The notes below the pieces were generated by a model, which was not told where the DNA came from, did no database searches, and saw only the letters and a list, made by a program, of their open reading frames with translations. The translations under genes were made by a program, and so were the position numbers. A DNA stretch of 64,000 bases from Bryoerythrophyllum caledonicum (lineage: Eukaryota; Streptophyta; Bryopsida; Pottiales; Pottiaceae): assembly GCA_963971425.1 (NCBI GenBank), contig OZ020514.1, positions 27,888,602 through 27,952,601 on the forward strand, written 5' to 3'. Shown piece after piece: positions 6,420 through 64,000 of the stretch (position 1 is its first letter; every line of letters begins with the position of its first letter).

Positions 6420-6425
6420 AAACCC

Positions 6426-6446
6426 GGATTGACTGTAGTGACCGGG
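6426..6446 (-). repeat. MULE terminal sequence, copy 1
   Basis: The 21 bases read on the minus strand begin CCCGGTCACTAC and are identical to the start of copy 2 at 40445-40465. Flanking bases then diverge completely between the copies, which places the element boundary within a base or two. Confidence 0.8.
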
Positions 6447-31957: not shown

Positions 31958-34900
31958 TGTTTCTTTCTTAAATGATAAGGACAACTAACTATTACCCTCC
32001 TATTCTCTACCAGTTAGCGTTTCTATTCATCCCTTGATCTACTAATCTGGATCATTCCGGATCCGGATGTCCCTTCTTTCAACCTCCGGACCCTTCCGGG
32101 TTCCAAATAGTTTCAGACGGAGTTTTCTTCTGGAGTTTTTAACCAAGTGGCTGGGTACCACTGATCCTCTTTTGTGTAAGTGGCCGGATTCCCCACTGTC
32201 TTGTGACTTAAAGTGGCTAGACACCCACTGCCCCGGATTTATAGTGGCTAGACACCCCACTCTTCCTACTTCGCTAACCGGTAGTTGGTTTGTTGCTTTC
32301 GGATTCACTCTCTCACATTATCCGGAAGGCCTTCCGGATACGATCACTCAGAGGCCCGTCCAGACTACAACGACATTCTGGTTGATGCTCACTGGTTCTG
32401 TGAGATGCGTATGGTAGATTTGCACTTAGACTTCCGTCTAGATGTACACCTCAGGCTTTTCCATCTATCATAAGGGGAAATTCCGGCCGCAACCGGAATC
32501 CGGGTTCACATGGATTCTTCGTGCCCTGGGAGCTACCAGGCTCACCACCTACAATACCCTCCCTCCTCCCTCCAGGCTTCTTCCGGTCACTGTGGATCGT
32601 CAGACTCTACCTAACCTCTCCTCCAGCTCTTCCGAGCGCTCTCCCAAAGCAAATCCCAACCAGTTGTACTAGGTGCAATCCGTGTAGCACTTCACATCAA
32701 GAACTAATTCACTAGACATCAACCACAATGGATCTTTTTCTCTATCCACAAAACTAGTACTCCATCACCATAAGTTCAAGAAGAGAAAATATACTAACAA
32801 AAAACACTCTTCGTGAAAGAGAAACAAGACCCTGAGCCGACTAAGACTCAGGTATTAAGTAACCACTAGGCCTAATCCTAAAATCTTATCCTATCAGCTA
32901 AAAATCCGGAAAATCCTATCCTAAAAGTAAAAAGGATCTTATTCCTTGAAATCCAGAATTCAAAACTCAGATCCGGAAATTTCGGATCTCAGATCCGGTT
33001 TTCTCGGATCTAACTCAAAACTTAATTTAGGGTTTTCTTTAGTCTACTGCGTGATAGTCGGGTGCAACCCTGAGCCCCATCGTTAGTCGCTGTTACACTT
33101 AAGCACTAGAGGGCCCTATCTACGGAGTAACCTGGTTCTTTCTCCTACTGCTACGGCGCGTAGGAGTGACCTCCACTGGTGCTGCGCTCGCTTCCAGATG
33201 TGCCGGAATGGTTGTTGGCGACTCGGGTACTGAGGGAGGTACCTGTGTCTTTAGTCCGGAAGGCTTGTCCGGATCTTTTGCCGTTGTGGTCCGGGCTGAT
33301 GGTGCGGCTGTCCGGACTTGGAGGCTCTGGAGGTCCCTGAAGCTACCACTGGGACTGACTACCATGGGCGTCGCCACAGAGCTTCCGGGTAAAGGAGCCA
33401 TCAGTGGTGGCACCGGAGAAAGAGACTTTGATGGAATCCGGAAGGGCAATGGGGATATCTGCATATCCTCTGGTGTTTTTTGCCACTTCTGAATACTCTC
33501 GGTGCTCGGAAAGGCCACCCCATTCCAATTCATCGGAGAGTTGAAGTCCGGCGTTCCCACGAGCTTGTTGAAGCCTCTGGTAGGGGTCTTTGGGGTTCCG
33601 GCTGCAGGTCTAGGTGAAGAGACGTCTATGGGTCAGGGCGAAGATCCGGCTTCCGGTCCGGATGGAGATCCGGACGAACCTGCAGCGGTTTCGGATGGAC
33701 GTGCAACGTCTGGAGCCGGAGGTGCTGCGTGCGGAAGTGGAGCTTCTGGTACTATGAAAGCCGCAGCAGCGAGATCTTTCGCCAACTCTTGCATCTTGGT
33801 CCAGGTGCTTTCCATCTTCCGGCTGTGGTCCACGAGGAACCGGATGACTTGCCCCCGGTTGAGCTTCTCGTTCTTCTCTAGGCTCTCAGTGTAGAGAAGA
33901 GCCCGGTTGACAGTATCCACCAGAAAGTCCAGCGTTGTGCAAATCTCTGTTAAGGTCTGAGTGGTTGCCCGGACCTTCGCTTCCGCCACAACTCTCGCAT
34001 GTTGTGCTGCATCTCTTGCGGCCTCCGCTTGTCGTACCTGTGCCCAGAGTCGGGTGTTGATACGGGTGACGGTGGTGTTTTCCTGCTCCAACCTCTCGAT
34101 TGAGCTCCCCTTGGCCTTCATCCGGGTGAGTCATGGAATGAGGTCATCAGAACACTCCGTATCTACCGCCTCCATGACAGCCAGGATCATGGCGTGCCGT
34201 TCCCGGATTTCTCCTTCCTGGATCCGGGTTTGCCAGACAATATGTTTGCAGAGCTCATTCACGTCCACCGGAATGTCGCCAATGATATTTGGGGCCCACG
34301 TTGGTCCCGGTTCTGATGCGTTCGTGAATCGTTATTCTCCCGCTTCCTCGGGTGATGGTGCCTCAGTCGGGCTCTGAGCTTCTACTGTTGATAGAAGCCG
34401 GCAGATTCCAGCGGCTTTCGGAGTCTTCTGAACCGAATGACTCCGCTTCCGGAGCGACATAGTCCAGACCTCCGGATGCGCCCGGACGTGCTTCTCGTAC
34501 TGGCTTGGTAGCTCTCCTAGGAGCTCCGCTACCATGGACTCGCTCTGGAACGCCCAGGGTGCTCCCAAGAGGCCTACGCATCCCATTATCTCCAGGTAGC
34601 TCTCCAAAACCCTGCAAATCTTGTTCGGTTGTGGGATCTGCGGCGTCACCTTCTGTAGCAGTTGGGTTCCGCATGCTGGAGCCTTGCCCTTCTTGCCCGC
34701 CATCCGAGCCCACCTCTCCGTGAACTTGCGCCTCGCAATGGTGGCCGGAAATCTTGCACGCATTGACCTCACCAAGTCCCTCGTGCTACGCTACCTCTGC
34801 TCTACCGTCCCAAACGAAGGCCGGACGTGAAAACCCTAAGGAAATGCGTGGAAAAGAAGAGAGACGAGACTTGCTGGAAATCCTAAAAGAATGGCGCCCA

Positions 34901-39858: not shown

Positions 39859-40828
39859 CTTAAAACACCATATTTGTTATATTGGGAGAATTAGCGACTC
39901 CCAAATTAATACATGTAGGGCATAAGAGCTAAAGTGCACATCTAAACTCTACAATATGGAGAGATATGAGTTTCCATTAAATTGGAAGGTAATGTTCACT
40001 TCAAAAATCCCTAGAAAAATAAGTACTACGGATAACATTACATTACAAATCTAACTATAATATTGAAAAGAAGAACACATTAGTTGACAATTCTTTTATA
40101 CCACATGTGTTCATTGAATATGAATAGCTAAATATTTACACTCGATCCTACTAAAGTGAGCTAAATGACGGACAAATATCCACTTGTAAGAGAATAAGCT
40201 AAACAAATTCTAATGAGCCTTTTCTTTATTTAAAAGAATTTCAGTTTACCGTGTGGAATACACATTGGCTAAAAAAATATGTAACGAGTTTCAAATGACG
40301 GTGTTCAGAAGTGGAAAAAAAATTGCACACACACTAGCTCTCTTCAAACTGAAGTGTCCCCATCACTTAGAGGTGTAATATACTCAAAATAGCAATTCCA
40401 CACACTTTAGCTCCACTTGACCTGAAGTGCGCACCATTACTAAGCCCGGTCACTACAGTCAATCCAGGTTCGCGGTGTCAGGGCCCGGTTTTAGGCCTGA
40501 CACCGCGAAGAGCGGCCCTTCTCCCCAAGCACCTAATCGCCTCCAAGCGCCCTTCTTCGCACGATAACGTCCACTTTCGCCCACAATTTTTTTGCGCTGC
40601 TCGTATCCCTTATTAGCATTATCGCCGATAGCCCCTTCCCCCTCGCCTTCTTCGGATCACCGAAAGCCCATTCTCGCCCTGCCACGTGTACGCTAGAATG
40701 ACCCGTCCTTCTCGGCGGCTGCTGGCGTGAAGTGTCATCCACATCGTTTGAGTTTGGCGCCGTCTTTCGTACGATCTATTGTGCCGTGTAGTACCCTGAC
40801 CGAAGGGAAGTGGGTCGTGTTGTCGTGA

Positions 40829-43800
40829 CTGGAGTTCCTCGATCTCAACCTCCCCATACAAGACACGCTGAATGGAAATTCTGGCGAGACGGTGCCACCA
40901 ACCGTTGCCAATAACGGGGCAGCAGTGAGGAAATGGAGGCGTCAAGGGAGAAAGAAACTGGCTGGCGTGCGTGAGAAGGAAGTGGAGGACCTTGATGCCG
41001 CGTTCTGAGAAGGCCCACATGTAGACTACCTGAAAAAACATGGTGACAAGGGTCTTTCGATGCGCCATTCATTAGAGAACCCTCCTCCAGGAATTTTGAC
41101 ATGGAATTGTCTTAGGTGGAACATGGAGGCCGAGAATGATACGAGGTTCGTAGAGGATCCGCAATCATGAAAGAGGAAGCAGTCCAAGCTTATCGCCTAC
41201 ATTCCTTGGCATAGGGTCCTGGATTTCGTAGAGGGTGAGCAGTCTGGCCGAAAGGATGTAGAGACTACCTTCGTCCGCGACAAGAACGACCCCACAAACG
41301 TCGACGAGAAGACGCACTATTGGTGGAACTGCCACATTGAGTACCAGCGGTAAGTGAATCTCGACCTTTGACATCACGATATGCACAATAGATCTGCTTA
41401 TCGGTTGTACCGTAATATCTCTTCAGTACTGCACGTATCTCTAATGGTCATAGCCGATAAGTAGATGGCGTTGTCAATACGGTCCCGAAGACAACATGGA
41501 CAAGATCTAAGCTATCATGCCCAAATGACACCAATGCCATCGAAATACAATCACAAAGGGAAGCAACTTACTTCCGGTGCAAGCCAGAAAGGCCCTCGTG
41601 CCACCAATGCGAAGGAGGGGGGGTCTATGAAAGGGGGCTGCCAATGTCGATTCTACGTAAAGAGGTACTACTTTCTCCAATATATTGCCGAGATAGGGTA
41701 CTTTTGCTCGGAACATGTTGACACACAGGGCCTCATCGTCCACGATAAGGACAATGTGCAGAGGGGAAAGCTCCGCTTTTGGAAGTACATGTCGGAGGAA
41801 GTAAGGCTTTGGGTTCTCAGGCAATTTGAGGAGCAAGTTCCGATGGCAGCTATAATACAGAAGCACCAGAAGCTGGTACTGAAGGCAGGCGATGAGGGCA
41901 CTCTTACGCCTTCTCGGGATTGTTTCCTTAGCATAGAGAACATCCGCAACATATGCGGAGTCCGTACGCAGGAACTATACAAGAAACACGACAACGACGC
42001 TCAGAGTGTGAGAATGTGGGTAAGAGAAAATCGAGGTACGGTTTTTTACTACCAAGACCCGGGCAGCAAGATTGACCGAGTACTGAATGCCGATAATGTA
42101 TCCTTGGTAATTGGGATTCAAACCCCATTTCAGACGCACATGATGCTGAAATACAGTCACAAAAACATTATTGCTATAGACGGGACATTCGCAACGAACA
42201 ACAAAAAGGTACACATACCTATATTGTGGTCTTTGTAGGGTCTGTCTAGAAATTAGGAGCACTCACTCCGATACCGCTTAATTTCTTGCTTGCGTGTCCA
42301 GTATCCTGTAAGCCCAAAAATAGACCCCCTAAGAGAATCCATTTTTTAACCTACAAGGTCCTATTGTTACACCACTTAAACCATTCCTTATGCTTAACTC
42401 TGGATAAATTTAAATAGGCCGAGTAATTATTTAATTAATTGTTATGTGATAATTATTATTATCATGTTTTGTTATTATTTATTGTTATTATTATCATTTA
42501 TTTATTTTTGTTTGTTTTAGTTTATTATTTTATTTTATTTTTTATTTTATATATTTTTTTTTTAATTTTTTTGTTAAGGTCGGCTGATCAGGCCTGATCC
42601 AGATCCTGTTTTGTAGCAGCAACTTCAACAGCCCTTATCTTTTGATTCGGGACTCCGAATTCAACAAAATTTCCTCTCAAAATGATCAGCAACTCAATTC
42701 CAACTTGAGTAAACCACTTAGAACCAAGATCAGCAGGCCAAGGACATAGAAACGATCATCACAAGCATTTTTCATGCACCAACGATCTCAACACATCATT
42801 ATGAACCAAAAGACGAACTTGTGCATACAAACAAAATCAATGGGCTGTGAACCGGTTCAGTTCCGGTGGAAGCTATGTGGTCCAAGACCTAATTCTGACC
42901 AAAATTTACCAACGCTTCCGCAGGAGATTCAGCCACCAGAAATTAAAAACCTAGCATCGCATGAATACACGCGGCCTAATATTGCCGTCTGGACTAGCAT
43001 ACCAATACACGAGGGAGAAATCAGGATTCCAAGGAAGGGTCACTCCCTGATTCGAGCAGTCGCGCAGCGCACGCACCGAATCCTCGCCTCCCACGAAGCA
43101 GCCAACCTCCCACTTCACGCACGAGCTCCTCACAGGTGCCACCCGATCCGCGCACCTCTCGTCTGGATTCAAGAACCCGACCTCGTGACTAAAATCACGG
43201 CCGCAGTCTCGCAACCAACCGCTCCGCCTGCACGCGCAACGCCTTCACCAAAAAAAAAAACACCCCCTACATGCCGGATTCTCCAGCTCGTGCGAGCTCT
43301 CCTCTCGCGCACTCAGGTGCGAACACAAAAAAAAAAAAAACCAGCTCTCTCGCGCACAGGAGCCCCTCGCGCGCACCGATGCGCCTTCCCCGAATTCGGT
43401 GCAGACACTCCCCAACACCCACACAGCGCACCACTCCTTGCGGGAGCTCTTCCCAGCTCTCGGTACACTCGAGCACAGACTCCTCGCTCCTCGCTCGCAG
43501 GAGCCAGCCTCCAACCCAACGACAGAACTCGCGCACTCAGGTGCGCACTTCAAAAAAAACGGGCTCCTCCCCAAAAACAGAGCCCTCCTCTCGCGCACCG
43601 ACGCGACCTTCAGCTCCAGGATCGCGTGCTCACAGGCACACACTAAAAAAACCGAAGAGCCTCTCCTCGCGCACAGCAGGTGCGCGTGCTCACAAACACA
43701 ACACAAAAAAAAAAACCCCCCGAGAGCTCCAGCTCTCCGAATCCTCCACTCGATTCCGGCGCACACACACAAAAAACAGAAGAGCCCACGATCTGCACAC

Positions 43801-46335
43801 TTACAGGCGCGTCCCTCGCGCACCGATCCCCGGTGCTCACGAGGAAAAAGAAGAAGAAGAAGACCAAAAACAGAGAGCTCCAGCGCTCTCGCCAGCGACT
43901 CAGCCTGGCTCGTTTCTCTCTTTTTCCCTTTTTTTTCTTTTTCTTTTGGTCTTTCTCGTTTTTCTTCCCCGACAAGACTCGCTTAGGGTAAATGAGGCAG
44001 CCCATGACCTCTCACAGAAGTGCAGGATTGGCTACTTACAGCCGTTTTTGCATGTTTTTAGTTTATTACTAGCATTAACTCGCCGCTTTGCTCCTGACAA
44101 GCCTCCCTAAAATTAATTCCATGGTGGCAAGAATTGTCATGTGGCATGTGCATGGGGAAGCACACCCAACCACCTTCTTTTCTTTTCTTCCTCTCCTTTT
44201 TTTTTTTTTCTTTTCCTTTTGATCTTTTAAAGACTATTACACTAGGTCTACTACTATCTACTGATGATTTGCAATTTACTTATAACTTCAAAAACTAACC
44301 ACACAGCTGGACTCCCAGCACCCTAATTAGTCTACCTTAATTTTCCTAGCATCTTTGGAGTTCCTTAAGTATTTTTCCCGAGTGGTCAAACCGTCGATCA
44401 ACTAGTCAACCCCTAGAATAAAATAGCAATTCAACTCGGAAAATTCTAGAAATTTTACCACTACTTCTACCTGCTAGGAGACACTCTTCTAATTTTTTCC
44501 CATATTTTTTTACCCATTTCTCAATTTTTGGTCATTTTCCAAGGACTTCCTTCCCATTTTTTATCTTTCTCTTCATTTCCATTCCACTTCCACTACACTT
44601 TTAAGTATATTAGTAGGGAGGAGGAAAAAATAGGGAACTTAGTGTCCCATCATGGCACTAGGCCTATTAATCTAGGACTTTGACTCTAATAGGTGGGTTG
44701 ACCACCAATTTTAACTAAAATTTGGTTAATACTATGAAGAAAACTCGAAAAATGAAGAAAAAAGAGTGAGGGCCCACTTTGGCCACTCACATATCCGCTC
44801 TTCACGATGATGGTATTTGACGAGTGGAGAAACGGAGTTCCAGTGGCTTTCGTGATCACTGCAAAATCCAAACCAACAGATCTCGTGCCTTGGATGCGCG
44901 CTCTGAAGCAGAAGTTGGTGCACATAAGTACGGACTGGAGACCCACTACCTTTGTACTTGACGACGCCAATAATGAGATCAACTCTCTTTGATAAGTGAT
45001 TTAGTATTCTTATGTTATTGGGTGACGGGCCTTCCGCGAGTTGTACTTATCGGCTTGTCGAATTATCGCAGGGAGGTTTGGCCGCACTCGCATCTATTTC
45101 TATGTCTTTGGCATGTTCGTCGAGCGTGGTAGAAGAATGCATGTGCTGAGTTGAAAGAGATGGAGAGGAGGGTCCGAGCCTTGCGAATTGTGGGCTCACT
45201 TATGTATGTATCGGAGACACCAAGTGACTTCCAAAGACCCTTCGACGAGAGCTCCCGGCGATAAGGTGTGGAATTTGGTAGAGTGGGTGCAGCATGTCTA
45301 CGGCGAAGCTAAGGCTCTCTTGCCATCTGTTGATGCATACTGGAAGTACTTCGACAAGGAATGGCTCCCGAAAATCAAAATGTGGGTTGTGGAAGACCGG
45401 AAAATCCCCCATGGTGGCCAGCACACCACTGCAGCTATCGAATCATACCATTCTAACATGAAAGCAGTGCTCCGGCAATCCAAAAGGAAGCTTATTGACC
45501 AAATGGTGGACTGGCTTATTTATGAGCTCACAGGAAATGTCATCGAGAAGTATGATTATAGTCACTGGTGTAAGCTGAACGGTTTTATAAAAAACAAGAG
45601 GCAGCGGCAGATCATGGTCAATGCAATCAACCAAGCAAATACAATTCCCGATAATGTGGTCACCTTGCCCGAGTGGTCGGGAGGTCCTACATGTGTTACA
45701 TCCTCGAATAGGAGACACCTTACGTATGCGGTATACAATCCATGCACCGAATGGGCCGTCTGCCAATGTGTTCATTCCCGGAATTGTAACATCTGTAAGC
45801 ACCAGGTTAAGGTCCTGAAAATGACAAGACTTCACCTGGCGGAGGGAAAAATTGCTAGATTCTAGGCTCCCTTCGCGGCACAATCAAAGGTGGAATGATG
45901 AATCTTCTCCGCCAAGACAATGGTCGACACCGGAATACCGAGGGCTTCCCCGATAATGGTGTCCCTTCTGATACCGAAACCGGAGATGTAATTCCAGTGG
46001 CTTCCAACCTTCGAGAATTAGGGGAGACATGGGTATGCGACTTCGATCGTATGCATCAGCTTGTCCTGAAGCTACTCGACAAGGCTTATCGGCAACCGTT
46101 GCTGGCAAGGCACTTGGATGCAGCTTTGCGCAACACCGACGCCACCCTCTCAAGGTTGGAGGCTGAAATCAAAGCCGGAATGCTTCATCCAGTCCAGGAG
46201 ATAGTTGCACCGCTCCCCACAAATGAAGACGGCCTTGGAATGAGGCTCCGAAGGTTGCATGACTTCCTGGATTCCAGAGCTTTTCGGGTGAGGTCCGTTC
46301 CAGCTAGCGAAAGACTAACTCAAGGAACGACTTAG
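40829..46335 (+). pseudogene. MULE transposase copy 2, interrupted
   Basis: Collinear with copy 1's four exons. Damage relative to copy 1: the start ATG is CTG at 40829; CGA to TGA at 41006-41008; a TGA at about 41168; one base lost (CCCGAAATG to CCCAAATG) near 41520; a 2485-bp LTR 5 bases into exon 3; the exon 3 splice donor CG|GTAAGC changed to TGATAAGT near 44993; CAG to TAG at 45130-45132; and one base lost with CTGG to CTAG near 45862. The SWIM motif (CQCVHSRNCNICKH) and the DDE Glu segment remain readable. Confidence 0.85.
42302..44796. mobile_element. Solo LTR (42307-44791) with TATCC target duplication
   Basis: The inserted DNA starts TGTAAGCCC and ends CCACTCACA (TG...CA) and is flanked by TATCC at 42302-42306 and 44792-44796. 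Copy 1 has the empty site (single TATCC at 4594-4590). It is 2485 bases with no internal gag-pol and no internal repeat of its ends, which fits a solo LTR left by recombination. It includes a homopurine/CG-rich block (43050-43900, with A-runs followed by ACTCAGGTGCG-like words) and polypyrimidine tracts. Its apparent open frames are low-complexity and I do not call genes. Confidence 0.85.
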
Positions 46336-47177
46336 GTTATCAACTCCGATGTGGTTGAGTATAAAGGGCAGAGGATTTTAGCTGCTAATCTGTGCCTATA
46401 ACCATTAATAATCTTATCGGTGGAATACTGCGGATAAGATGCTCTTAGATTAAGTTCCATGCATCTCCTGAAATTTCCAGTGAAGTGATATTTCTTTAGT
46501 TATGAAGTTAAAACTCAACATTCAATATAATCGGCAAAGACTAGATTTTAAGTTCCGCTTACAGGCCTCAAGTGGGTCTCAAATTCCGTTTCTGTACGCT
46601 ATCGAAAAATTTGTCATTTACAATGAATGAAATGTACAACATCGGCATCCTATTAATCTGTACAAATTCTTGGAGTCTATCGGCTGTGTACAACACTGCC
46701 CCCCCTTATCGCCTACTTCTTCGTCTAGGTGGTGCCCTTCGATTTTCTCATTTTTTCGGGCTTTTTGGCACGGTTGCCTTCTTCCGCTTCCTCGAGTCAC
46801 TTGTGGGTTTGTGAGCACGTTGAAGCCCTAAAGTTCACGATTCCCCACTGTCTCCGAAATACCGAGAAGTGGGACTTCCTTCTTCTTCGCCGTCTGTGTA
46901 CCGGCTTCCACAAAAACTACGTCCAGACTTCCGCTTCTGAACTCCATCGTATCTTGTCCACATAAATTAAGGGCATTGTGGAACGGAAGCGGTGCGACAA
47001 TCTCCGTGTACAGCGCTTGCATGAACCATCGGTACGCCTTCTTCCCATCCTTGTCCAGATATTTTGTCCCCATTATCACGGTCTTCTCCTCCGCCTCTTT
47101 GCGCCCACCATGTGCGATAAGGTACTGCCTGAAGGCCAAGCCTGCCATGAAACCACACTCCCAGCTTTCTTTCTGAT

Positions 47178-47450
47178 TAGGCACACAGGGTTGTCTACAT
47201 AGACGGACAGGGGCCCAAAGACAGCGGACGGACGGACAGTCGGACAGTCGGACAGGACGGACAACACCCTTATCGGACTGATGCCTAAAATATTCTAGAG
47301 AATATGCTCCAAATCTATAGGAATATTCTTGAATATACCCGAATTTTCTATAATATTCTCTACCGGACGGACAACAACCTCTATCAGACAAACAGCCGGA
47401 CGGACGGACACTACCGGACGGACGGACGCCGGAACAACCCTATAGGCAGA
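47178..47450. mobile_element. hAT-type MITE (47186-47442) with 8-bp target duplication
   Basis: A 257-bp insertion starts CAGGGTTGTC and ends GAACAACCCTA (imperfect inverted termini of the hAT CA/TAGGG type). It is flanked by TAGGCACA (47178-47185) and TAGGCAGA (47443-47450). Copy 1 has the uninterrupted site at about 2203-2211. Both arms carry GGACGGACA repeats, and the centre is AT-rich with AATATTCT palindromes. It has no coding capacity, so it depends on a hAT transposase elsewhere. Confidence 0.85.
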
Positions 47451-49851
47451 GGCAACCTTGTCGGGGATCAACTCTGCCATTCTCGCCAACTTCGAGATTT
47501 GTTCCTCACGCCCTTCGCGTTTGCCCATCCCATGTGCACAAGGAAGATAAAGTTGTCCACTTTTTCACCCTTGTGCATACCTTTCGCTGGGTCCAGGTGA
47601 TACGTTTGTCTTTGCTCCATGACGAATACACTCTAGTGACCCTTATCGTGGTAAGAGACGATAAGGGTATTCGGCGACTTGGTGATGATACGAAACGAGC
47701 GGCTGAGAAAGCTCACGATGTCATCCCAGTCCTTCCCTTCATTCGCCAGATAGCACTGCAACGTCGCCAATAACTAGTTGAACGTGTGATGATACTGGAT
47801 TCGAACATGCTCCTTCGCACGGTAGACAACATGCCTAAGGATGAAATCCAGAAATGTGCCTTCCATTTCCCGCTTGTCTTTTAGCACGCAATGCCAGTCT
47901 TGTAGTGCAAGCAAGACATCCACGGCTTGCCGAAGGTCTGGACCGAAAAACCTCATACTTCCAATCAGGTCCTTCAGGTGAATAAAATGAGGCCTGCAAT
48001 TCAGAAGAAAGGGGATGTTAGACAACAAGTGCCGATAAACAACACGTGTCGGAGAATACGATAACATAGACGACGAACTCATCTGAGTTTTAGGACCTCC
48101 ACAATATTATCGAGGTTCTTCTCTATCGTGGATGCGTCATGCTCCTCGGCTTCGTAACAGAGCGAGGGCTCTTTCTCCCAGGTCACACAGTCTGACGTAC
48201 ATGCTCCGCGATTCTCCGCCAACATGCACGTATACGCCGCCGTCTGTCCTTCCCTTCCGTTCTGAACCCGCTCTTCGAGTCCAGGATAAACCCAAATACT
48301 GGTCAAACAAGATTCCTATGCTTCCTTGATAAACCGCAGTGCCAGTCTGATCTCCTCGAGGTCCATCTCCTTTGGAAAAGGACTATCGGGCTCTGGTGGA
48401 GGAGTAGGCTTAACGAGTTCCGGCGGAGGAGCAGGGTTATCGGGCTTTGGCGGAGGAGCAAGGTTATTGGGCCCTGGCAGAGGAGTATGGTTTTTGGGCT
48501 CAGAAATCAGAGCAGGGCTATCACGATTTGGCGGAGGAGCAGGTTTAACGGGTTTTGGCGGATTCGCATGGTTATGGAGCTCTGGCGGGCTAGCAGGGTT
48601 TATTGGGCACTGGCGGAGGAGCAGGGTTATTAAGCTCTGGCGGAGAAGCGTAATCGGACTCCGAAGAGGGAGGATTCTTTGGGATTGGAAAATTTTTCAA
48701 GGGTGTCACACAAGGCTCCTCAAGAACAACCGGGGGACTGTCAGTAGAGTCCAGGTTTTCAATACCTTGACTCGACAGAGGGAACGATAGGCGATGGAGT
48801 TGCATGCTATGTTCCGTCTCCCCCGTACCCCCGTGTACAACATGAAGACGAGGGGTGTCAAATTATGTTAGCCCCACCGGCGATTGTGAAGACTCCGCAA
48901 TGCGGAGGGTAGCGTCATTCATTGCTTGTGTCCACGAAAGCTCTATATGAGATGGGTTATCGGCGGGACTCAGTGGTGACTTCACCGCTGTAGTAGCGGG
49001 CTCTTCCTGGAGTCTTTCGGGAACACCTCCCTGAAGTATTTTATCGCTAGGCCCCTCTTGTGCTTCCTCCGTAACTTCGTCCAGACCCTTATCGGAGAAT
49101 CCTTCGTCGTCGTTATTCCTCGTGTACCGATTTTGGACGCCGAATTCATTTGAGGTTCCCTCATCCATGTGAAGAAGGGCATCTGCACCCTCGAGGTCCC
49201 TTGTTCGGGTAGATGTCTCCCGCCAAATTTCGTCATGTGAAGTCACTGGATGCCCTTCTTGTCGATCCCACTCTGTCGTCAATAGACACGACACAACATT
49301 CTTGCAATCTGCCTCTGCAAGTTCCCTTTTGCGTGCCCAGGTAGGATCTACAGTGCCTACAAAAGGCTTATCGTTTAGACAGAGGGAAATAATGGAAAAA
49401 CCAAGAATGAGGAAGAAAACAATTAGATGAATGGCGGGGTTATCGGATAAATCTTACGTGGAACGAAGCCGACATACATGAAGTCCGGATCTTCCCTCGC
49501 CAAGCAGTTCTCGTCCAAGGTATCCCAGTGTTTGTAGGTACCCTTATTGGCAGCACACCACTATCGAACAAAATCCTGTGGGTAACTCCTTGCTGTGTCC
49601 ACCACAGTGCGAGCGTGGATCATCGCGATAAAGCGTAACACAGAATCTCGCTCGCCGTGCTTATTGTCGCGGAGGTGCTGTTCGGATGCGTCCCTTCCGA
49701 AGAGAAAGCGACTCAGGACTTCGTACATTTGAGACAACCCATCCTAATTTGTCTCTGGAGCGTCCACGTACATTGCAATGCTGGCAGGCTCGGGGATTAC
49801 GCTAGGGTTGCTCGTATTCCGGCCCCTGAAAAACAAAGGAGTCACGTTAGC

Positions 49852-51399: not shown

Positions 51400-54300
51400 C
51401 TAACTACTATATCCCTCACTAACATCCCCTTCCGAAGCCTCAACATCCATAAATTGTTCCACACTGGAATGGAATGCGCGGCGGGGAGGAGAAGGAGCTG
51501 GAGAAGGAGTGTGTGCATATGCAATAGCCATATCCTCGGCATAGCTTGGAAGCGTGAAAGCCTCTGGAAGGCTCGAACAAAAAGCTCTGCATAACATACA
51601 GTTAGTGATCCGCTAACAAGTAGAGTATATGAATTACAAATATTTTAGAATGGATAAATAAAAAAAAACTTACGCACAGGCAAATCGATTGCGTTTTGGC
51701 TTCTTTGATGGGCGCTCCTCTAAAAGAGGCTAGCTAGCCTTCCTGACAGCCTTCCTGGCAATCGCCAGAGGAGGAGAAGGCTTAGCAACCAAAGGCTGGA
51801 GGATTGTAGTGAAGATATCCAGATCATCTTCAAATGCAACAATGTGCCTACCAGTGGCTTGGCAAGCACGAATAGAGGCACCTGCAAGAATTAGAAAACA
51901 TATAAATAATCATATGATAATGGTTAATAAGAAATCAAATTGCAAAAATAAATAAAGAGTTCATGAAAGGTACCAGTGGAGGCCTTCCAATCCAACATGA
52001 TGTCACCAAGTTTTGGAAAGGACTCAATCAAGACTTGCATGAAAAGGGGATCTTTTTCCTGTGCACCACGCCAGGGCAAACTCCCTCGCATGAGCTGGTT
52101 CTTGACGGTGGTGAGATTGAAAAAAGTTTCAGTCTGCTCAACTTCGAGATCCACATCCGAAAGCTCACGATTCTCTATGATAGAGAACTGTGATTGAATG
52201 GGTTCATCACGGACAAAGAGCTGGATCCAAAAGCGATGCGACGGCAATAGACCCAATCCATTAAAAATCACAAATGATAAAAAAAATTCCAAAAGAGAGA
52301 ATGGAATTGGAAAATATATCGTACCGTGGTCGAGGGGAACTTTGGAGATGCCAAGGCAATATCATTAATTCCCCACCAATCTTTACAAAGGTGGAAGCTA
52401 TATTGCTCCGCAACTTCTTCAACTTCGGAGCACAGTGCACGATCATCGCAGTGGAAAAGAAGAATGGGGGCGTCATCATGTAAATATGCATCACCAAACT
52501 CAAAAATGGACTCTACATACCGTTCAGGTCGTGAATTCCATTGTGGAATTGTCGAAGGCGGCGTTGAAATGCCAAGCACTGGCAAATTCTCTGGAATGTC
52601 GACGATGATGAGATCCAGACTGGTGTTCTTACAATGTGGAGAAGACACACAACGTGTTCGACCAGAACCAACCTGCATGAAACAATAAGAAATGAGATGA
52701 AATGATGAATAATCTGATCAATAGTCTAAAGAACTAAAATAGGTAATAAATATGAAAAAATACCTGGGTAATAAATTGATGAAGCGTCTCCCATAATTGA
52801 TCAGGGCCTGCTGGCCTACCAAGAGTCTCCATTACCGCAAAAAGGGACGCATTTTCCAACATCACCTCCAAAGGATGTATCTGTGCAAGAGAGGTGGAAG
52901 CAGAGGGCAGCTGGCGGACTTTCCGTTGCCCAAGGAGCTCCTCCATGGCTTGTGCAACACTTGAAGTGGTAGGGAACTGAGATAAAGAGTGTGGTAACAT
53001 ACCATGTTGGTCACTTGTTGGGGCAGTGATATTGCTAGGTAATACTGAGAATGTAGGAAGACTAGAGGTCGCAGCAGTAGTGGCATCTCCTACCTCCTTC
53101 ACTTGTGCAACCTTGTTTACCGCCTCCTTCTGGGCTTTGGTCAAAGGTTTCTTCTTCTGAGAAGAACCGTGGCCTCGAACATGAATTGGTTGAATGGAGT
53201 CTTCCTCAAGAAGGTCGACAACTTCGGCAGCTCCAATAGGAGATACAGAAGCAGCATCAAGGCTATTCCTAATGTGTACGTCATCGTCCAGAGTATAGTT
53301 TGGTGAACAATCAAGGTACCAACACCCAGCTTCGAGGTGATTGGCTGCGTACCTCTTTTGTTGCACTGGAGTATACATGCAAAGGTCGGAGGAAAGCTTG
53401 ATCCAAGCTTCAACATAGGGTGGGAGAGATTGAGATGGAATGGCATGTTTAGTAATGAGCTCCTGCATCATATATCTGCCAAAAGAAAAATATTTAGTAA
53501 GCTCAAAAAATTCAATGTAGTGAAAGGAGACAATTATAAATATATAAGTTAAGGTTCAAAAAATACCGATATAACACACGTCTCTCTGCCAATTGAGCTC
53601 CAGGATGATCATCAAATATGGATCCCTTCATAAAAGGAGGGGTAGCATTTGGGTGGAGAAAAGTTTGGAATGCTTTGTCCCAAAGCAAAATTCTCCAAGA
53701 CTCCACAAAATCTGAGGGCTTTTTGATGCCTCCAGATGCACTCCAATCAATATTACCCAATTCATCACCAGAAATCTCATTGAACTGCTTGACAACACGG
53801 TCTTCGATCTGCAATGAATATATATAATCAAGCAGTGGAATTAAATGAAGTTACAGAAGAAGAATAATGAATGCAAGGAAATCACATTACCTGAGCCCAA
53901 AATGTGGCTTTGTTGAGCCAAGTATCAAGGTCTGCCTCCTTAAAATTGGCAGGAAGGAAGCGGTAGGCAGCTCGCCGCATAGTGCTTGAATTCCACCACC
54001 GAAGCCATTTGGCTTTAAATTCTGGCTCCACCACAGATGTTGCAATCTTTTGAAGCTTCTCAATTGTCATCTCCGGCTTGGAATTTGTACTATAGTGCAA
54101 ATTGATCTGTTGCCCATAAAAAATATTTATGATAAATGACATGAAATAAAATATGAAAAGTCACGAAAGACAGTATATATAAATGACATGAAAGTAGAAA
54201 TAGAGTTGAAATGCTCTAACCTGATTGAAGAAATCCTCCCCATTTCTAGGATTCGCCACAGTCAAGTACTTCAGAAAGTCCTTCTGTTTAATGACTTTAA

Positions 54301-56848
54301 TGGCTCTTTCTGAAGCAGCCTGCATGACCCCCAACACGGCCTCCGCAGTCCTATCCTTCTCCTGAGTACGATCATTGTACTCACGGACAGCCTCATCAGA
54401 AGCACGGGATATGTCAGCCTGGGGACAAGATTCAGTTATCAGCAACGAAGTCTTTATTAATTAATGAGTGAAATAATCTTGAAATCTCAAATGTGATAAA
54501 AGAAAACGCACCCGATACAAAAAGGAGATGAAGACATCAACCGTGAGAGGGAACCACGCCGGCCTAGTATTTTTGATTTTTCTACAAGTTTTGTACTCAG
54601 TGGGAGTCAGCAAGTCACGAAAGTCCTCCAATGAAAGTGCTCCAAAATATCGCATCCGTGTCAATCGAGCAGAGAGACTAGTCTTGACATGATCATTTTG
54701 AGTGGACCTAATTTGAGAGTGGTTAAAGAAAATAAATGAAATAATGGAATTTGAATAAATAGAAATTTCAAAGACATACCAGTTAACGTCGTTCATTGCA
54801 TTCAGAAGAGGTCCAATGCGGCCTCGGGGGTCCAAGACGATGCAGATGACTGAGAAATGCCAGCGAGCCTCCTCAGAGTGATCGATGTTGATTTTGCGCC
54901 ACCAAGCGGAGAATCTGTGATTGCCATCCCAAACATAGAACATCTTACCTCTCAGATGAGCGTATAAAGCTGAAGACTCAAGCTGGGCGTCAAACCGGTC
55001 ATTTGCATCATGCCAATGATGACCCCAAGAAGTCTGATGCTCGTCTCCAACGTCAGTAGTGGTCTCCTTATCGTTGTAGATGGACACGTATAGAGCACGA
55101 TCTGCATCATCATATCCATCACAATCTTCAAAAAGAATCTCCAAGCGTCGGACATCCACCTCTTGAACTGGTCTAACTCGTGGCAAAGGTAAGAGCCTGC
55201 ATAATGGGATTCGTAACCCTGAAACCAAAGATCGCATGCTATTTAAAACAGAGTGATAGTCTCGCTTCTCCAACTTGCGCCGCAATCGCTCCCCTTCTTT
55301 AGCATCGTGGCAATTTGGTGGACACTTCACCGTTGTGCAGTCGTCGGAGTCGGCAACTGAATCCACCGAATCAGAGACCTGTATCCAAATATTAAAGAAT
55401 TCACCAAATCATAGCAATACTAGATAATGCCAAAGCTTTCAAGAAAACAAATCAAGGTAACACACATATCATGAAAGTAGAGTGGTCTCAATACATATCA
55501 AAATAGTCAGGGTTAACACATGCGGCACTTTAAACATGGGGCATGAAATAGGAAATCCATATTCAAATTGGGTCTATAAACTCAAGATTCAATTATTTGA
55601 TTTGGACAACAGCAAATTCCTCCACAGTAGAATCAAACGAGAGTCACAATCATAAGCACATTTGATGAATTACCATATATTGAACATGTCTTGAGCACAC
55701 GATAATTTCCATGAAAAGTCCAATTTAATTGACATTATTTCAAATCGAACAGAAGCACAAAGAGCATAGAGAGCAACAACACTTACATCCATATAAACAT
55801 AATTATAGTATGGACAATGTGCACAATTCAGGCAGAATATTAACCCCTAAAGTCGAAAGGCCTCTAAACTGCCAAAACCCTTAAAACTGCCCTCTTTCAA
55901 TGCAAGGTGAAAATCTTTATCATTTGACAGATTTTCGAGTATGTAACCGTAAGATCTAGTACCTAACTTGTACATGTACATGCATACCGAATCTTAGATT
56001 CAAATTCCTCACCATTTGTGAGATCGTTATGTTCAAAGTTGAAGAATTTTTTTTTTCCTTGTCGTAGAATGGAAAACTAATGTTTTGGGGGCCAAAAAAA
56101 CCAATTTTGAAAGGAAATTTGAAATGAGGCTCTTCAAATTCTTGTTCCTACGATTTTTACCATCTCAGGAACTATAAAACCTAAAGAAATGCTTAATTTT
56201 CCACATGGAGGTATGCTGAAATACAAATACTAAGGCATGAAAAAATTATTGTATTGACAATCCGAACGGTGAGATCATGCTTTACTACCCCTTTTACATG
56301 TACGAAAAACAAAATTCGAAAAAATGTAAAATCTCATTTTTTGGTGAATTTTTGAAGTTACTGCGATCTAACTGATTTTGGGCAGATTTTGAGAATTAAT
56401 GAGCATACACCACAGTTTTGGGCAGATTTCAGCATGCCCTAATAGTGTTTTCAAACTTTGACCGTGAATATCTCCTCAAGTATGAGGAATTTTGAAGCAT
56501 GAATGGTGTCATTTTAAAGGTATGGGAAAACTCTACAACCTTCTAAAAGTTGAACTTCATACGATCTTAATTTAGTAACTGAGAGCCTGACCCGAGTCGG
56601 ACTTATGATAGTACTTCGAGATCAAGACGTACATGGGCTTCATTGACGTGCAGAATTCGCATGCACAGACCATCGACGCGTTGATGCAGCTCGACCAGCT
56701 ACGTTTGAAGATCTCGACCAGCTAACTTTGACCGTGAATATCTTCTAAAGTAAGATCTCAATTTAGTAACTGAGAGCCTGACCAGAGTCGGATCGACCAC
56801 ATTCTGCTAGATTTCGAGGTCAAAGTCAAGGCTTACCTCGGTCGCCAT
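51400..56848 (-). CDS. ParB-like plus DNA amino-methyltransferase-like protein, 11 exons, one in-frame TAG
   Basis: Exons: 56848-56837, 55378-54780, 54707-54512, 54418-54221, 54106-53891, 53808-53567, 53475-52764, 52672-52325, 52220-51974, 51881-51674, 51586-51400. All borders are GT-AG, all phases agree, and the sum is 3165 bases (1055 codons). Near residue 155, YVWDGNHRFSAWW resembles the ParB/sulfiredoxin G-x-x-R segment. Residues about 745-755, LDLIIVDIPENLP, sit where amino-methyltransferases have DPP(Y/F/W). About 900-945, EKDPLFMQVLIESF then GDIMLDWKASTGASIRAC and TGRHIVAFEDD, match motif X, motif I and the acidic motif II, so the order is IV before I (beta class). The DPPY aromatic is replaced by Glu, so catalysis is doubtful. 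TAG at 51732-51730 (codon 974) truncates it before an in-frame last exon with KKPKR, a nuclear signal. The central part (about 600-720) is Ser/Thr/Lys-rich. Confidence 0.75.
56454..56793. repeat. Partial direct duplication in intron 1 of the ParB-methyltransferase-like gene
   Basis: AACTTTGACCGTGAATATCT occurs at 56454 and 56724. GATCT(T/C)AATTTAGTAACTG followed by AGAGCCTGACC occurs at 56563 and 56754. The second copy has lost about 80 bases between the two blocks. Confidence 0.8.
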
Positions 56849-59074
56849 GCAAGGGTTCGGTGCCAAAGGCTGCAGCTGCTCTCCGTCCTGTGTCATCTCG
56901 GCTCCCTCCTATGACCAACAAGAGAATCTCGATTCAGCTTGAACGATCCCGAAAGGTATCGAGCGCACTAAGCGCAAATACTGTAGATATACATATCCAG
57001 AACCGTAATCAACTGGAAGACTTACATTCGCAACAACAAGAGGGTTCGGTGCCGAACTCTCTCCGAGAGGGGCCTTCATTGTTCTTCTGTCAACTTCCTA
57101 TCACCGGCACACAACACAATTATCAAATTGAACGACCTACACGGAAGAAGTCGGCACCGTTGGTGAGATCGTGCTGCGGAGTGTCCTGCTGCAATTCCGG
57201 CACTAGCTACGAAGTGTCCAGGTGCAAGTCTCGCTGTAGGTCAAGGTGAGTGTCTCAATGGCAGTCCCGGCACTCTGTTCCGCGACGAAGAGTCCCGCTG
57301 CGTGTCTCGCCACTGGCTGTCCCGATGGAAACTGTCCCGTGGTGCCTAAAATTCGGCGCTGGGAGGTCGAGGTCTTGTCGCCAGGATGTCGGCGGAGATA
57401 CTGCGTTCTGCGCATCGAGAAGGCTTCAGCGCCGAAGCCTCCTCCGCTCAAAGCTCAATCATCCTCCGAGCAGTTCACAAATATGCAAATTTATTGGAAC
57501 CTTACGTCGCACTTTAAAACCTAACGAGACCTAACGACGCACTTCAAGACCTAACAAGACCCATAATCGATCTAGCGTTCGCACCAAGACACAACCACAC
57601 TACGCCAACAACCACAAGTTTCAACAATGACGAATCCAGCACACACACGACGATCACCACATACGCGACGAATCCAGCAACAAATCCAGCAAACTTCTCA
57701 CCAATACTGTGACGAATCCTGCAAACTTCTCTGACGAATCCTGCAAGACTGAACCGGCAAATCACCAAGACTGAACCGACGAATCCGTTTCTGCCGGCAC
57801 TCCGCCAGAGTTGGGTTCTGTGACAAAATCCAATGCAAGACCTCCAGATCTAGAACAGGTAAAGGTACATGCACAGGAACATCGTGCACAGAATAGTCAT
57901 CATCTACACTTCACAGGAACATCGTTGCGAAGAAATCTAGACAGCAGAGACATTTTAGACTTCAAATCTACAAATTACTTTATTCAACACTTAAGAGACA
58001 TGTATTAGTGGTAATATACTTGATGTCTCTCATTGTACACAAGGCTAAAATTCCATCTTGGAGTGCGAATCGTGGATTACGACGACGTGAGATTATAGCT
58101 GTGAGATTACACACGTCGTGAGAAGAAGCTGGCTCCCAGTGCGATGATTTTGAAAATTGTGCTAGCGGTAAAAACAAGCAGTTGAGGACAAAAGTCAGTT
58201 GAGGACAAGCGTCAGAAAGGTTCCACGTTCAGAGACCATATACAGTACACAGTCCTGGCTCCTCCCAAACCATATATCTTGTGTAACTTGCTTTCCCCAG
58301 GATTCCTTAGACCTTGTTTAAAATCTGATCTCTGGAAACGTTCACTGAAAATGTACATTTGGTGACACGTATTGATGGAAGAAGATACATTACAGTTGAA
58401 GTCTCTCATCGAAATTGTAATTTATTGAACAGACATAATTGAATGATTATGACTTGATTTTTTATCAACTTTTATTCTTCATTATGATAATTTAGCCCCA
58501 AGGACATTCAATTTCTGACAAACAGTTTGTCCCTCTCTTTTGAATTTAACATTACAGTTAATATAATTAATGGGTTCGACATTTGACTATGTACGTCAAA
58601 AGTTATGGTATGAAGTCTAATCACTGAAGCTCAGTAACTATTCTACCATCTAAAAGACCAAATGTATTTGAAGTTGTTGATAATGGCATCCATACATGAT
58701 CAAAATGTGACCCACATGTTGAGGGTATTATACTCTAATTTGTTCTCTAATACTAATGTATATTAAATGAAGTTTTACATCCAACAGGAAGCCAAAGTTG
58801 GTAAATATTTGACCAGTCAGGTTGAGATGAGTTGGATGAATGATAGTGGAAGTAATTTACAATCATATACTTTCATGATGATAGAAATTTTTGACTTTCA
58901 AATATACTTTTCGGTCCAACGACTATGTATTCCAAGAGTATATTGGTCAATTTCCCTAAAAAGAATATGTTTAGACAAGGCCCAACGGTTGCCCAAATGA
59001 AGCTTCGGCCCCGAAGCCTACCGAGCTCAATAACTTCCAATTCCTTGCCACCATTCCATGAGCATTCCTAATCA
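56849..59074. other. Upstream region of the 51.4-56.8 kb gene; no further gene supported
   Basis: The first several hundred bases upstream of the start codon should hold the minus-strand promoter. No clear TATA box was fixed. The plus-strand open frames at 56.86-57.5 kb lack protein character. 57620-57790 is a degenerate repeat of about 20-25 bases (GACGAATCCTGCAAACTTCTC-like). Beyond 57.9 kb the sequence is AT-rich with nothing recognised. Confidence 0.5.
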
Positions 59075-60566: not shown

Positions 60567-61240
60567 AAACCCAAGCGTACAAATGAATTTGAAAACCTCT
60601 CTTCTAAGGTTGTCAAAACACCTTTGAAAGACGCTTCTTAATTGAATTTAGAAGTTTCCAAGTCATTGTTGCTATATTAATTTGCATACAACTTGGCAGA
60701 AATATGATAGCTTCCTCTCTATCAGCCGCCGCCATTCACTTCAATAATTGTTGACACTTTATTTATAGCTTACATATTTATGAGTTGTTTGTCACTAATT
60801 GTTATTTTGGGTTCATTGCCGTCATTCTAATGCCTGATAATACCCAGTCACTTTAATTCATGAACATGATGGGTTGTCAACCTTTCAATCTTATTCCAAT
60901 CATATAGTGCAGTCAGAGTGCAATTATACACCGTGAATTGTGCCTTCGTCTATTCTTTAAAAGTTTCTCTAATTGCATCTATCCGCCGTCATTCACTTTC
61001 AAGAATGGGACTTGCAAAAATACCGAATATGAACGTTTACTTTTTCATTTACGGCTATTCTGTTAAAGAAATTTTATTCCTGGATTACTCCCAAAATTTA
61101 CTTCTAATAAATTGTTTACATTCGTCCATGTTAGAAGTTTTTGTTTGTGCAAGTACTTAATCTTTTGTGCCTCTGCTAAACTCCCTCTTTTGAATCGATT
61201 TCATTCTGTCTTTGTGAGGTTGCAATTTACTTAGACTACA
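60567..61240. other. Spacer upstream of the Cys-rich transposase-like gene
   Basis: No gene recognised. The repeated phrase CCGCC(A/G)TCATTCAC(T/C) occurs near 60727 and 60988 in similar context, so part of it is a short direct duplication. Confidence 0.4.
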
Positions 61241-64000
61241 ATGGCCTTCATTTGTGTTGATTTGCATTCTGTGCCAGTTACATTTTCGTTGGGTGAAGAT
61301 GGTCATGCCATGGTCACTTCCACAACCCTAGGTTTGAGGTTTCAATTTCGTGAAGAGTCTGTCTTTGTGGAAGAAGAGGTTTTTGACATTACAACGGGAC
61401 AAGTCTCGCATGCTATTGGTCAGTTGTCGAGTACGAACGATGTGGGGACATTCTGGTTGCTTAAACCCGGAAAGTATCGGGCATATGGAGTCTCTGAGTC
61501 AGTTTCAGCAGCTTCCACTGAACTTCTTACTCCTCGGGAGTCTTCCACTATTAGCATTAAGACCCCAATGCTTTCCAAAGTCAAAGTAGAGCCAGGTCTT
61601 GAGACCATCTATGAGCTTAGTGATGACTCGGATAGTGAAGACGTCCAGGGTTCACTGTTAGAACCAAAGTGCAGAGAGCAGAGGGCGCTATCTCCGCAAA
61701 CTATACGCCAAAAGTCAACTCATCCTATCAGTCCGTCACGCTCCAGCGAGCCGTCAAAAACTCCACCAAGTTACTCAATCTGCGTAGTTCAGTCCTTAAT
61801 GAAACTTAGTGCACGTAAGAGGTCAAAAAATGTCTTGTCCCGAATAGATTTCAATGCAATTAAATTAGAGCAGGTAGAATTTCTTCCGCCTCAATACAAT
61901 GGAGACATTGTTTTTGAATTTCCTCCGTTAGGAGTCCATGGCCAGCAAATTGTAGCCAAGCAGCTTCGTGGCATGGACAAACGTTATGATGGCCATGCTT
62001 GGTCTCGCACCATCACGTCTAATATTCAAAATGAATTGAAACTTACATTCCGTACCTCTTCCTGTCTTGGCCACCTCCGTTGTGACAATGTCGACTGTGA
62101 GTATCTATCTCGAGACCATAGAACGGCCGATGTGAATGAGACTGAGTGGGATGGAATATCTGTCAAAGTATTTGAAGTTGGATCCAGTCCTCCTACCGGT
62201 TCTACACTAGTTTGCAAAACATGTAATGTCCCACCTACATGTATTGCAGTTTGCCCTGCGAAGATATATGTGAAGCATAAAACCGAGATAGTTAAAATAA
62301 CTATTACTCAGCGAGTTCATCCCTAGGGAATTGAAAGTTATGTTTTGCCGTAATATTAGTGTCACTATTATATGTAAGTGTGGTCCGTAATCCTTACAAA
62401 GCCTTAATATAACACCATAATCCGTTAATAATCCTCCAAGTCAAATGCCATTAAATCTTCCATAACATCCTCCACATCCAAGTGCAAGTACTCTGCTCTT
62501 CCTATAACTTCCGTTGTCTCGTACTCACCTGTGTTCCATTCCATTGCTTCTTCTATTGTTATCAGTTCAGTGGGAATTCCATTCTTCTCCTCTTCCGTTC
62601 CGTACCTCATTAACCAGTTGTAATCTTCTTCTCATAATCTCGCCCCTATCTCCGTTCTTTGATTCGCTCTGATCCGTATGTAAATCTCGTGGTCGATTCT
62701 CTCCTTTTCCACTCGGTTTACGATTGTCACTCTTTCCTTATCGCTGTTCAACCATCCATACTTCAAATTCAGCCAACACCTGAATGCCTTGAATTTCTCC
62801 TCGTCCGTTAGTTCCAATCCTGGCATTACTTCATCTTCATAATCTGATTATGAATTATGTTCAATTCAAAACACACTTTTATTCTTATCATTATTTGATC
62901 GCTCTATCATCTACCACCTAAATTAACCCGCAATTGCGGTCCTCAGATTTATTTTCATATCAGTTTCTTATGATTTTCTTTCACTCGATTCACTCATCTC
63001 TCCTTCTCGGTGTCATTGATTTACTGCCAATTGACTTCATTCCCAGCGTAATCTTTCTCAATTCTTCCATATGCACAACTTCAATTACATTAAATTCCAG
63101 AAACAATACAGCAAAGAAAACAAAGAGATAGCACAACGCGTATCTCGGCACTACAACTGATCAACACAATTGGGCCCTGAGCTAGTTCCAAAAACTCCTA
63201 CTTAAGCACCCGCAACTCCCAACTGCCTTCCCTTTCATAGCAACCGACACCCCTTCCGAGCTCAAGTCCGTTGGAAACCCGGTATTTAAGCTCCTAGACC
63301 TGTAACTAACTTACTTTAACTACAAAAAAGGGTTAACTCAAAAAGAAGGACTATTCTACGTTCTACAATATACTATGTGTTTGGAACACCACACATGACG
63401 AGAGCATATGTGCATTTAGGATCTCACGACCATCCTGTCAAGACTGGTGATTACCGTGACTTCATTGAGCAGATAGAGAGCGTGATTGGTGAATAGGTGG
63501 AACAGACTCCATCAGCAACTTGTTCCGCCATTGTGCTTGAAACAGTGAAGGAAGTACTTGGCCCACTCCTTTTGGCTAGAGAAGGCGAGGAACGGAAGAC
63601 CTTGGAGCTCCCGGAGTTGTTGCCATTCTTTGATCGGTGCAAGCATCTAACCTCTCCCAATCTTCGTAATTCTGTGTCTACTTTTAGGCATCTGCGACGG
63701 TATGGAATCATGGACAGCATTACCAAGCTTCGGGGCTCGAGCACCTGGAATTTTGTTCAGGAGAATATGTTTCCAGGACAAGGATCAGACATGGACAAGG
63801 TCTTCGTCTTCAAGATGTCCGAGGTCGGGCCTGGCAACGGAGTTGACTTGGTGAAGCGAATGCAGTCTGGGGGTGACCTTGAGAACGCATGGATAATGTT
63901 TGACCATGTCAAACGTGTCAGATCCAGGACTACCATGGCTTGCCACGTGTACGACTCCACTTATTGTCGAGTCATGACAATCGCAGTATGTGACATGCAA
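61241..64000 (+). pseudogene. Cys-rich transposase-like gene, interrupted, continues past window end
   Basis: Exon-like frame 61241-62326 encodes a variable acidic N-terminus (IYELSDDSDSEDV), then a conserved Cys/His block: CLGHLRCDNVDCEYLSRDH, NETEWDGISVKVF, STLVCKTCNVPPTCIAVC, a GCM/WRKY-like zinc-binding layout. TAG at 62324 and a frameshift follow, with FCRNISVTIICKCGP just after. A second frame, 63395-64000, carries TRAYVHLGSHDHPVKTGDY, PNLRNSVSTFRHLRRYGIM, FPGQGSDMDKVFVFKMSEVG and CHVYDSTYCRVMTIAVCDMQ at the window edge. This resembles the DDE-containing part of a MULE-like transposase family of early-diverging plants (from recollection). TAG at 63494 interrupts it. The join between the two parts is not resolved. 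Confidence 0.6.
62425..62844 (-). pseudogene. Antisense open frame inside the transposase-like gene, one TGA
   Basis: The frame starts at about SDYEDEVMPGLELTDEEKF (62844), continues through RCWLNLKYGWLNSDKERVT to TGA near 62630, then EEDYNWLMRYGTEEEKN to a stop at 62425. Composition is balanced and charged, unlike the Ser/Leu-rich sense reading, so it is probably a real former gene or exon. Family unknown. Confidence 0.35.

Follow-up and report, generated by a model that had tools for sequence, protein, structure and literature searches.

Here we examine the gene on the minus strand at positions 57079-51400 of a 64,000-nucleotide stretch of DNA from the moss Bryoerythrophyllum caledonicum (contig OZ020514.1, positions 27,888,602 to 27,952,601; the whole stretch is referred to as the window). 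The gene is almost certainly the passenger of a transposon, and it encodes a protein whose C-terminal domain is, as judged from profile searches, nearly beyond doubt homologous to the beta-class N6/N4 amino-methyltransferases. The reading that fits the results best, to which we assign a probability of roughly 60%, is that the product would be an accessory protein of a Mutator-like element (MULE) lineage, probably without catalytic activity, which binds DNA or counteracts silencing. The domesticated host protein that was suggested in a preliminary description of the sequence, on the other hand, has to be given up, since the gene travels in many copies with an element that has been mobile recently.

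The genome searched is the window's own, comprising 437 Mb in 894 contigs. With the spliced protein as query, 226 exon matches were obtained from 41 places scored among 5,346 first-look candidates. With exon 9 as query, a match was found at all 150 places that were scored, the window included, out of 1,655 first-look candidates; 49 of these places are 87-100% identical to the query and the remaining 101 are 51-63% identical. Around ten copies, here called A to J, 20 kb of sequence was read. Eight of the others agree with copy B at 99.84-99.93% identity over 12-14 kb, all nine near-identical copies stop at the same base 3' of the gene (...CATAATAGCATTCCCC), and a perfect 10-bp target duplication is present in 9/9 copies tested (A-I, with A assessed by eye). 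The near-identity and the intact target duplications imply that transposition was recent, and the nine copies are thus recently mobile.

Element B has a length of 14,371 bp and ends in imperfect inverted repeats of ca 50 bp, in which a 45-bp stretch matches at 87%. It contains two divergent genes, the left one on the opposite strand and the right one being the accessory gene of interest. The left gene consists of open frames of 730 and 485 codons, ca 100 bp apart, in which paired cysteines, an RNase-H-like stretch and a C-x-C...C-x-H SWIM-like motif can be seen by eye, and it is a probable MULE transposase. Target duplications of MULEs are 8-11 bp long (PMC6446971; this and the other papers cited below are drawn on in excerpt). 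The 10-bp duplication falls within this range and terminal inverted repeats are present, and the element very likely belongs to this superfamily.

In the window, the right terminus of the element is at 50318, where the gene-strand sequence likewise ends ...CATAATAGCATTCCCC, and the element extends past 64000. The divergent open reading frame at 61235..62326 on the plus strand corresponds to the N-terminal part of the probable transposase, and the left-gene protein is 51% identical between the window copy and copy B over 348 aligned positions. At the DNA level, the left halves of the two elements are 74-78% identical where stretches match, while in the right halves the two longest matching stretches have 95-97% identity and the sequence that separates them 84-92%; the 5.2 kb that hold exons 3-12 are 96.6% identical. 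Similar accessory genes are thus found beside quite different partner genes, which suggests exchange of the accessory gene between elements, as if it were a module.

We now consider the gene itself. On the basis of the sequence, the coding region can be spliced from 12 exons, with GT-AG at all introns and all phases in agreement, to give 1092 codons plus a stop. The preliminary description had 11 exons and 1055 codons, and this count is reproduced, stop included, when the same splice is started at the inner ATG 56848; the in-phase splicing stands, but an upstream exon (exon 1, 57026..57079, start-side and in phase) has to be added, and exon 2 (56837..56908), which holds ATG 56848, is longer than was given. 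A matching stretch for exon 1 with a GT donor is present in copies B and J. Exon 3 (54780..55378) encodes the conserved N-terminal domain and is followed by exons 4 (54512..54707), 5 (54221..54418), 6 (53891..54106) and 7 (53567..53808), and by exon 8 (52764..53475), which covers the middle region and a low-constraint linker. The methyltransferase-like domain has its catalytic half, with motif IV, in exon 9 (52325..52672) and continues in exon 10 (51974..52220), with motif X (PWRG..EK) and motif I, and in exon 11 (51674..51881), with the rest of motif I and motif II (AFE, 51837-51829). Exon 12 (51400..51586) provides the C-terminal tail and the final stop codon. Exon 11 also has a basic stretch, KKPKRNR, which by eye resembles a nuclear signal.

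It should be pointed out that the frame of the window copy is not open throughout. An in-frame TAG at 51732-51730 in exon 11, codon 1012 of the 12-exon model, was passed over in the preliminary description. Both versions of the model read through it, and the window copy would lose the last 81 residues. Copy B is open at the same place and on to the final stop; all its exon boundaries and splice sites, including those of exons 4-7, are conserved, and it has no coding indels relative to the window copy. In eight divergent copies (51-62% identity in exon 9) the intron positions around exons 9-11 are largely conserved, with one acceptor as placed lacking AG in 2/8 of them. Judged by sequence and conservation, the gene is real and the splice model sound.

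For the C-terminal domain, exons 9-11 were read from the eight divergent copies. Two of these, L055 and L058, are damaged and were excluded; the other six, once spliced, were combined in one alignment with B and the window copy. With matches listed up to E <= 1, each of the eight members of this alignment hits three PHROG families of (DNA) methyltransferases, with a best E-value of 5.7e-8, and also PF01555, with a best value of 6.7e-7. An hhalign comparison of six transposon sequences with six phage methyltransferases yields a probability of 98.1% and an E-value of 8e-14 over 207 columns, and sets D-I-P-E on the phage motif IV, D-[ILP]-P-[YF]. The phage enzymes were picked among 30 listed of the 647 records that match motifs X-I-II of the sister clade described below. 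As the choice was made by similarity in these motifs, the agreement in the first half of the domain is not built in. Matches to PDB entries are weak, and a PDB sequence search with one sequence gave chance-level matches only. The motif order IV, X, I, II, which is the beta-class permutation, is confirmed in the alignments; both this assignment and the altered motif IV had been proposed before and are borne out, the motifs D-I-P-E (52600-52589), LDWKASTG (motif I, 51995-51974) and D-G-N-H-R (exon 3, 54928-54914) being located as claimed.

The change in motif IV is conserved across the family. We compared 22 sequences, some of them near-relatives of each other: the window copy, B, L051-L060 from the same genome, and P0001-P0010 from among eleven further relatives of the methyltransferase part in public assemblies (P0011, in which motif IV is not covered, was left out). 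The first residue of the motif is Asp in 22/22 and the third is Pro in 19/22, while the fourth is Glu in 21/22, mostly as D-I-P-E, and Phe in 1/22. The aromatic fourth residue of the [DS]PP[YFW] type is thus absent from the window copy and occurs among the 22 only as D-Q-P-F, and for this reason we do not file the domain as an active methyltransferase. The glutamate thus seems to be fixed in the clade and not to be a sign of decay. The acidic residue of motif II is invariant in two alignments, and motif I reads ASTG, in contrast to the G-S-G type core of the six phage enzymes.

The D-Q-P-F motif belongs to a sister clade of eight similar copies (L059, C3:24400-25600), which has GIE in motif II. 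In the genome scan this clade exceeds the cut-off of PF01555, and its contiguous 105-residue translation scores 31.6 bits against a cut-off of 26.7; from these features it is possibly an active methyltransferase. Counterparts of exon 9 can be recognised at other loci too, where they are 26-44% identical to the sister clade. Another clade (L060, C2:39067600-39069800) has D-V-P-E in motif IV, and the counterpart of exons 7-10 is there a single open frame of 564 codons. Long open frames like this one are also carried by several other genomic places.

The N-terminal domain is more difficult to assign. Public assemblies contain 34 relatives of exon 3 at 36-80% identity; 20 of them lie on contigs shorter than 6 kb, the other 14 on contigs of 23-675 kb. 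The family may reach beyond this genome, although some of the relatives could stem from the same organism or a closely related one. G-N-H is present in 35/35 aligned exon 3 sequences, followed by R in 31/35. Domains of the ParB/sulfiredoxin-like kind carry a motif of the G-x-[HR]-R type, and the conserved core of exon 3 is of this type. The PF02195 (ParB) profile, however, gives no match with the exon 3 family, DndB appears once at E 0.26 amid other Pfam families at chance level, and a search of the ParB exon against phages gave no match at E <= 10. The PHROG family phrog_1033, "ParB-like partition protein", is hit by 9/35 members with a best E-value of 0.056, next to unnamed families at 0.024-0.051.

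When the exon 3 family is compared with eleven phage ParB domains by hhalign, the probability is 2.3% and the alignment covers the GNHR core only, with a score of 20.13 compared to a best score of 17.75 in 40 column shuffles of ParB. Removal of a 39-residue insertion, chosen by eye, leads to an alignment of 58 columns with an E-value of 0.0014, a probability of 17% and a score of 26.01; the corresponding controls give 18.18 (best of 100 shuffles), 9.6 (reversed ParB) and 15.88 (phage methyltransferases). For the ParB-like domain that had been named, there is the GNH core and the weak phrog_1033 and hhalign signal on one side and the missing PF02195 match on the other, and from these sequence comparisons we regard a ParB-like fold of the N-terminal domain as plausible and somewhat more likely than not.

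Searches with the entire protein were less informative. The spliced window protein matches no Pfam family at E <= 1, DUF1985 included, and no protein at E <= 10 was found among 8,000 candidates scored out of 5.8 billion proteins; shorter queries did find relatives. Scans with two peptide patterns gave 257 pattern matches in viral contigs and 212 in prokaryotic contigs, with no confirmed relative in either. A viral insertion was also considered as an explanation of the locus and is ruled out, as the flanks are transposon ends and the pattern scans yielded no confirmed viral or prokaryotic relative. The gene may have come from a bacterium or phage.

The ratio of nonsynonymous to synonymous substitutions (dN/dS) indicates how the protein has been maintained. 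For the whole coding sequence of the window copy compared with B, dN is 0.022 and dS 0.052, which gives a ratio of 0.43. By region, the ratio is 0.42 for exon 3, 0.24 for exons 4-7, 0.38 for the methyltransferase exons and 0.29 for exon 12. Between subfamilies, exon 9 has ratios of 0.12-0.28 where these are computable, at dS values of 1.4-2.3 that are near saturation, and 12 pairs (window copy, B and J versus L052, L053, L057 and L058) are past saturation. These values point to purifying selection on most of the protein while the elements spread.

Taken together, motif IV no longer has the residue that should stack on the target base, so the DIPE protein is probably non-methylating, and we consider a non-catalytic domain in this clade the better bet. 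The protein retains, beside the methyltransferase-type domain, a second conserved domain and a basic, nuclear-signal-like stretch, and most likely binds DNA. In the mechanism that we propose, the methyltransferase-fold domain of the DIPE clade would have lost DNA methylation or altered its chemistry, and the protein would be a nuclear DNA-binding factor that the element itself encodes, acting through its ParB-like and methyltransferase-fold domains. It might then shield its own element from silencing by the host, or help to assemble the element ends. We put the chance of such an anti-silencing or DNA-binding accessory role somewhat below even. A fold that is kept while motif IV changes is known from METTL14 (EPPL), the pseudo-enzyme partner of METTL3 in RNA methylation, which serves here as an analogy only.

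A number of observations weigh against this picture. First, stops are present inside exon 9 at 29/150 scored places, so that many copies are dead, and copy J, a less similar tenth copy, has two coding indels. The window copy itself is probably defective, given the premature TAG and the missing duplications: its right end and the terminus-like sequence that lies ca 16 kb from it, beyond the window at about + 66458, are not flanked by a matching target duplication, which means that this copy is older or rearranged. Taken alone, it scores only 12.0 bits against PF01555 (E 0.2), below the cut-off. Constraint is slight in parts of the gene, with dN/dS of 0.81 for exons 1-2 and 0.75 for exon 8 between the window copy and B, and of 0.48 for the close pair L051-L055. 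Pfam scans of the presumed transposase gave no match, so that the superfamily assignment rests on the ends, the duplications and the motifs seen by eye, and the probable transposase has been seen beside the accessory gene in the copies read for it, B and the window copy, only. Finally, the aromatic residue in motif IV of the DQPF clade means that catalysis may persist there.

An accessory protein of a transposon need not be epigenetic in function. It could instead be a transposition factor that binds the element ends or the excised DNA and assists integration, for which the second gene of MuDR is a precedent. The gene adjoins the probable transposase in element B as well as in the window copy, and its domains are of DNA-binding type. 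However, the presumed transposases are 51% identical over the part compared, against 96.6% DNA identity over exons 3-12, a contrast that argues for exchange between elements rather than tight co-evolution, and we regard this explanation as unlikely.

A second alternative is that the protein is an active amino-methyltransferase, which marks its own or the host's DNA with N4-methylcytosine or N6-methyladenine. In this case, either DIPE would work as a catalytic motif, or the DQPF protein would be the writer and the DIPE protein its partner. The aspartate of motif IV (22/22) and the acidic residue of motif II are invariant, the sister clade combines DQPF and GIE with a score above the PF01555 cut-off, and retrotransposons with Dam-like or DNMT genes do exist (PMC5890265). 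Against this stand the replacement of the motif IV aromatic residue by Glu in 21/22 sequences and the ASTG in motif I in place of the G-S-G type core of the six phage enzymes, which make catalysis by the protein quite improbable.

The gene might also be passively captured cargo of the Pack-MULE type, with no function for the element. MULEs tend to acquire fragments of host genes (PMC6446971), and many copies here carry stops, but the purifying selection, the shared intron positions, and the exon 9 counterpart that can still be recognised at 26-44% identity to the sister clade speak clearly for a maintained gene, and on this evidence of selection we set the cargo explanation aside as highly improbable. 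A single old acquisition turned into a regulatory protein of the host, to which the many introns, the bacterial-type domain and the altered catalytic motif had pointed, is as good as excluded and for this locus refuted, since a single-copy gene is incompatible with at least 150 genomic places and nine near-identical copies with target duplications; a separate single-copy relative could exist in the host.

Returning to the accessory, non-catalytic protein, its nearest working model is VANC of the VANDAL elements. VANDALs are MULEs of Arabidopsis that encode VANC proteins with sequence-specific anti-silencing activity (PMC10398659; PMC5735166), and in these excerpts, as here, the transposon carries a second, non-transposase gene. 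There are also differences. VANC has DUF1985/DUF287 according to the excerpted PMC5735166, while the spliced window protein has no Pfam family, and in VANDALs the transposase is described there as the more conserved gene, while here the accessory gene is far more similar between the window copy and B. Transposon-borne DNA methyltransferase genes in many copies are likewise on record, as Symbiodinium and charophyte retrotransposons carry DNMT and DIRS elements carry Dam-like genes (PMC5890265, in excerpt). Those elements, however, belong to the retrotransposons and encode C5-cytosine DNMTs or Dam-like enzymes, in contrast to the present DNA transposon with terminal inverted repeats and a beta-class domain with a changed motif IV.

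Amino-methyltransferases of host origin are known in the plant nucleus, the liverwort DN4MT1 being an N4-cytosine methyltransferase encoded by a host gene. The N4CMT of bdelloid rotifers, as described in the excerpted PMC8885841, is a host gene too, with SPPY and a chromodomain, and is involved in transposon silencing. It resembles the present case in being a permuted bacterial-type amino-methyltransferase in a eukaryote, but here the gene belongs to the transposon. Fusions of a ParB domain and an amino-methyltransferase in one protein are found in bacteria, such as Bce_0392 (PMC5512222, in excerpt), and in phages, such as the 310-residue Streptococcus phage Javan447 protein (L067), which is annotated as "DNA modification methylase" and has its ParB part N-terminal. 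Compared to these fusions, the transposon protein has ca 500 extra residues between the domains, introns, and a weak ParB similarity.

A more far-reaching scenario is that the transposon lineage acquired a ParB-methyltransferase fusion from a prokaryote or phage and used it as an epigenetic machine. The family would then have split into a DQPF clade, possibly an active writer, and a commoner DIPE clade, which retained the fold but lost the catalytic aromatic residue and serves as a reader, partner or anti-silencing protein. The accessory gene would be exchanged between elements with transposases that are only ca half identical, and would in this way spread as an independent module. We put this forward tentatively and consider it somewhat doubtful.

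Cases in which a transposon encodes its own protein for DNA modification or against silencing are rare and informative, as exemplified by VANDAL/VANC and the DNMT retrotransposons, and no description of a DNA transposon with a protein of the present kind was found in the open-licence literature searched. The element would add to them a recently active DNA transposon lineage that occupies at least 150 places in a single genome and whose amino-methyltransferase domain is degenerate yet conserved. Its active- and inactive-looking motifs form a natural series, on which it can be asked whether base-amino methylation or only the fold serves the survival of the transposon. For annotators there is also a caution: in a genome of this kind, what looks like a methyltransferase of bacterial type or a ParB fusion may belong to a transposon.

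Other repeats are present in the window as well. Positions 1-6446 and 40445-49635 hold two copies of another large element, 85-92% identical and in opposite orientation. By eye, its open reading frame at 1574-2674 is like an Ulp1-type protease and those at 3052-5452 are like a SWIM-type transposase, with Pfam matches that are absent or below threshold. Three long open reading frames, at 16575-18740, 28844-29470 and 33120-34130, have no Pfam match over the cut-off; they have coiled-coil and proline-rich tails in common and perhaps represent another repeat-borne gene family.

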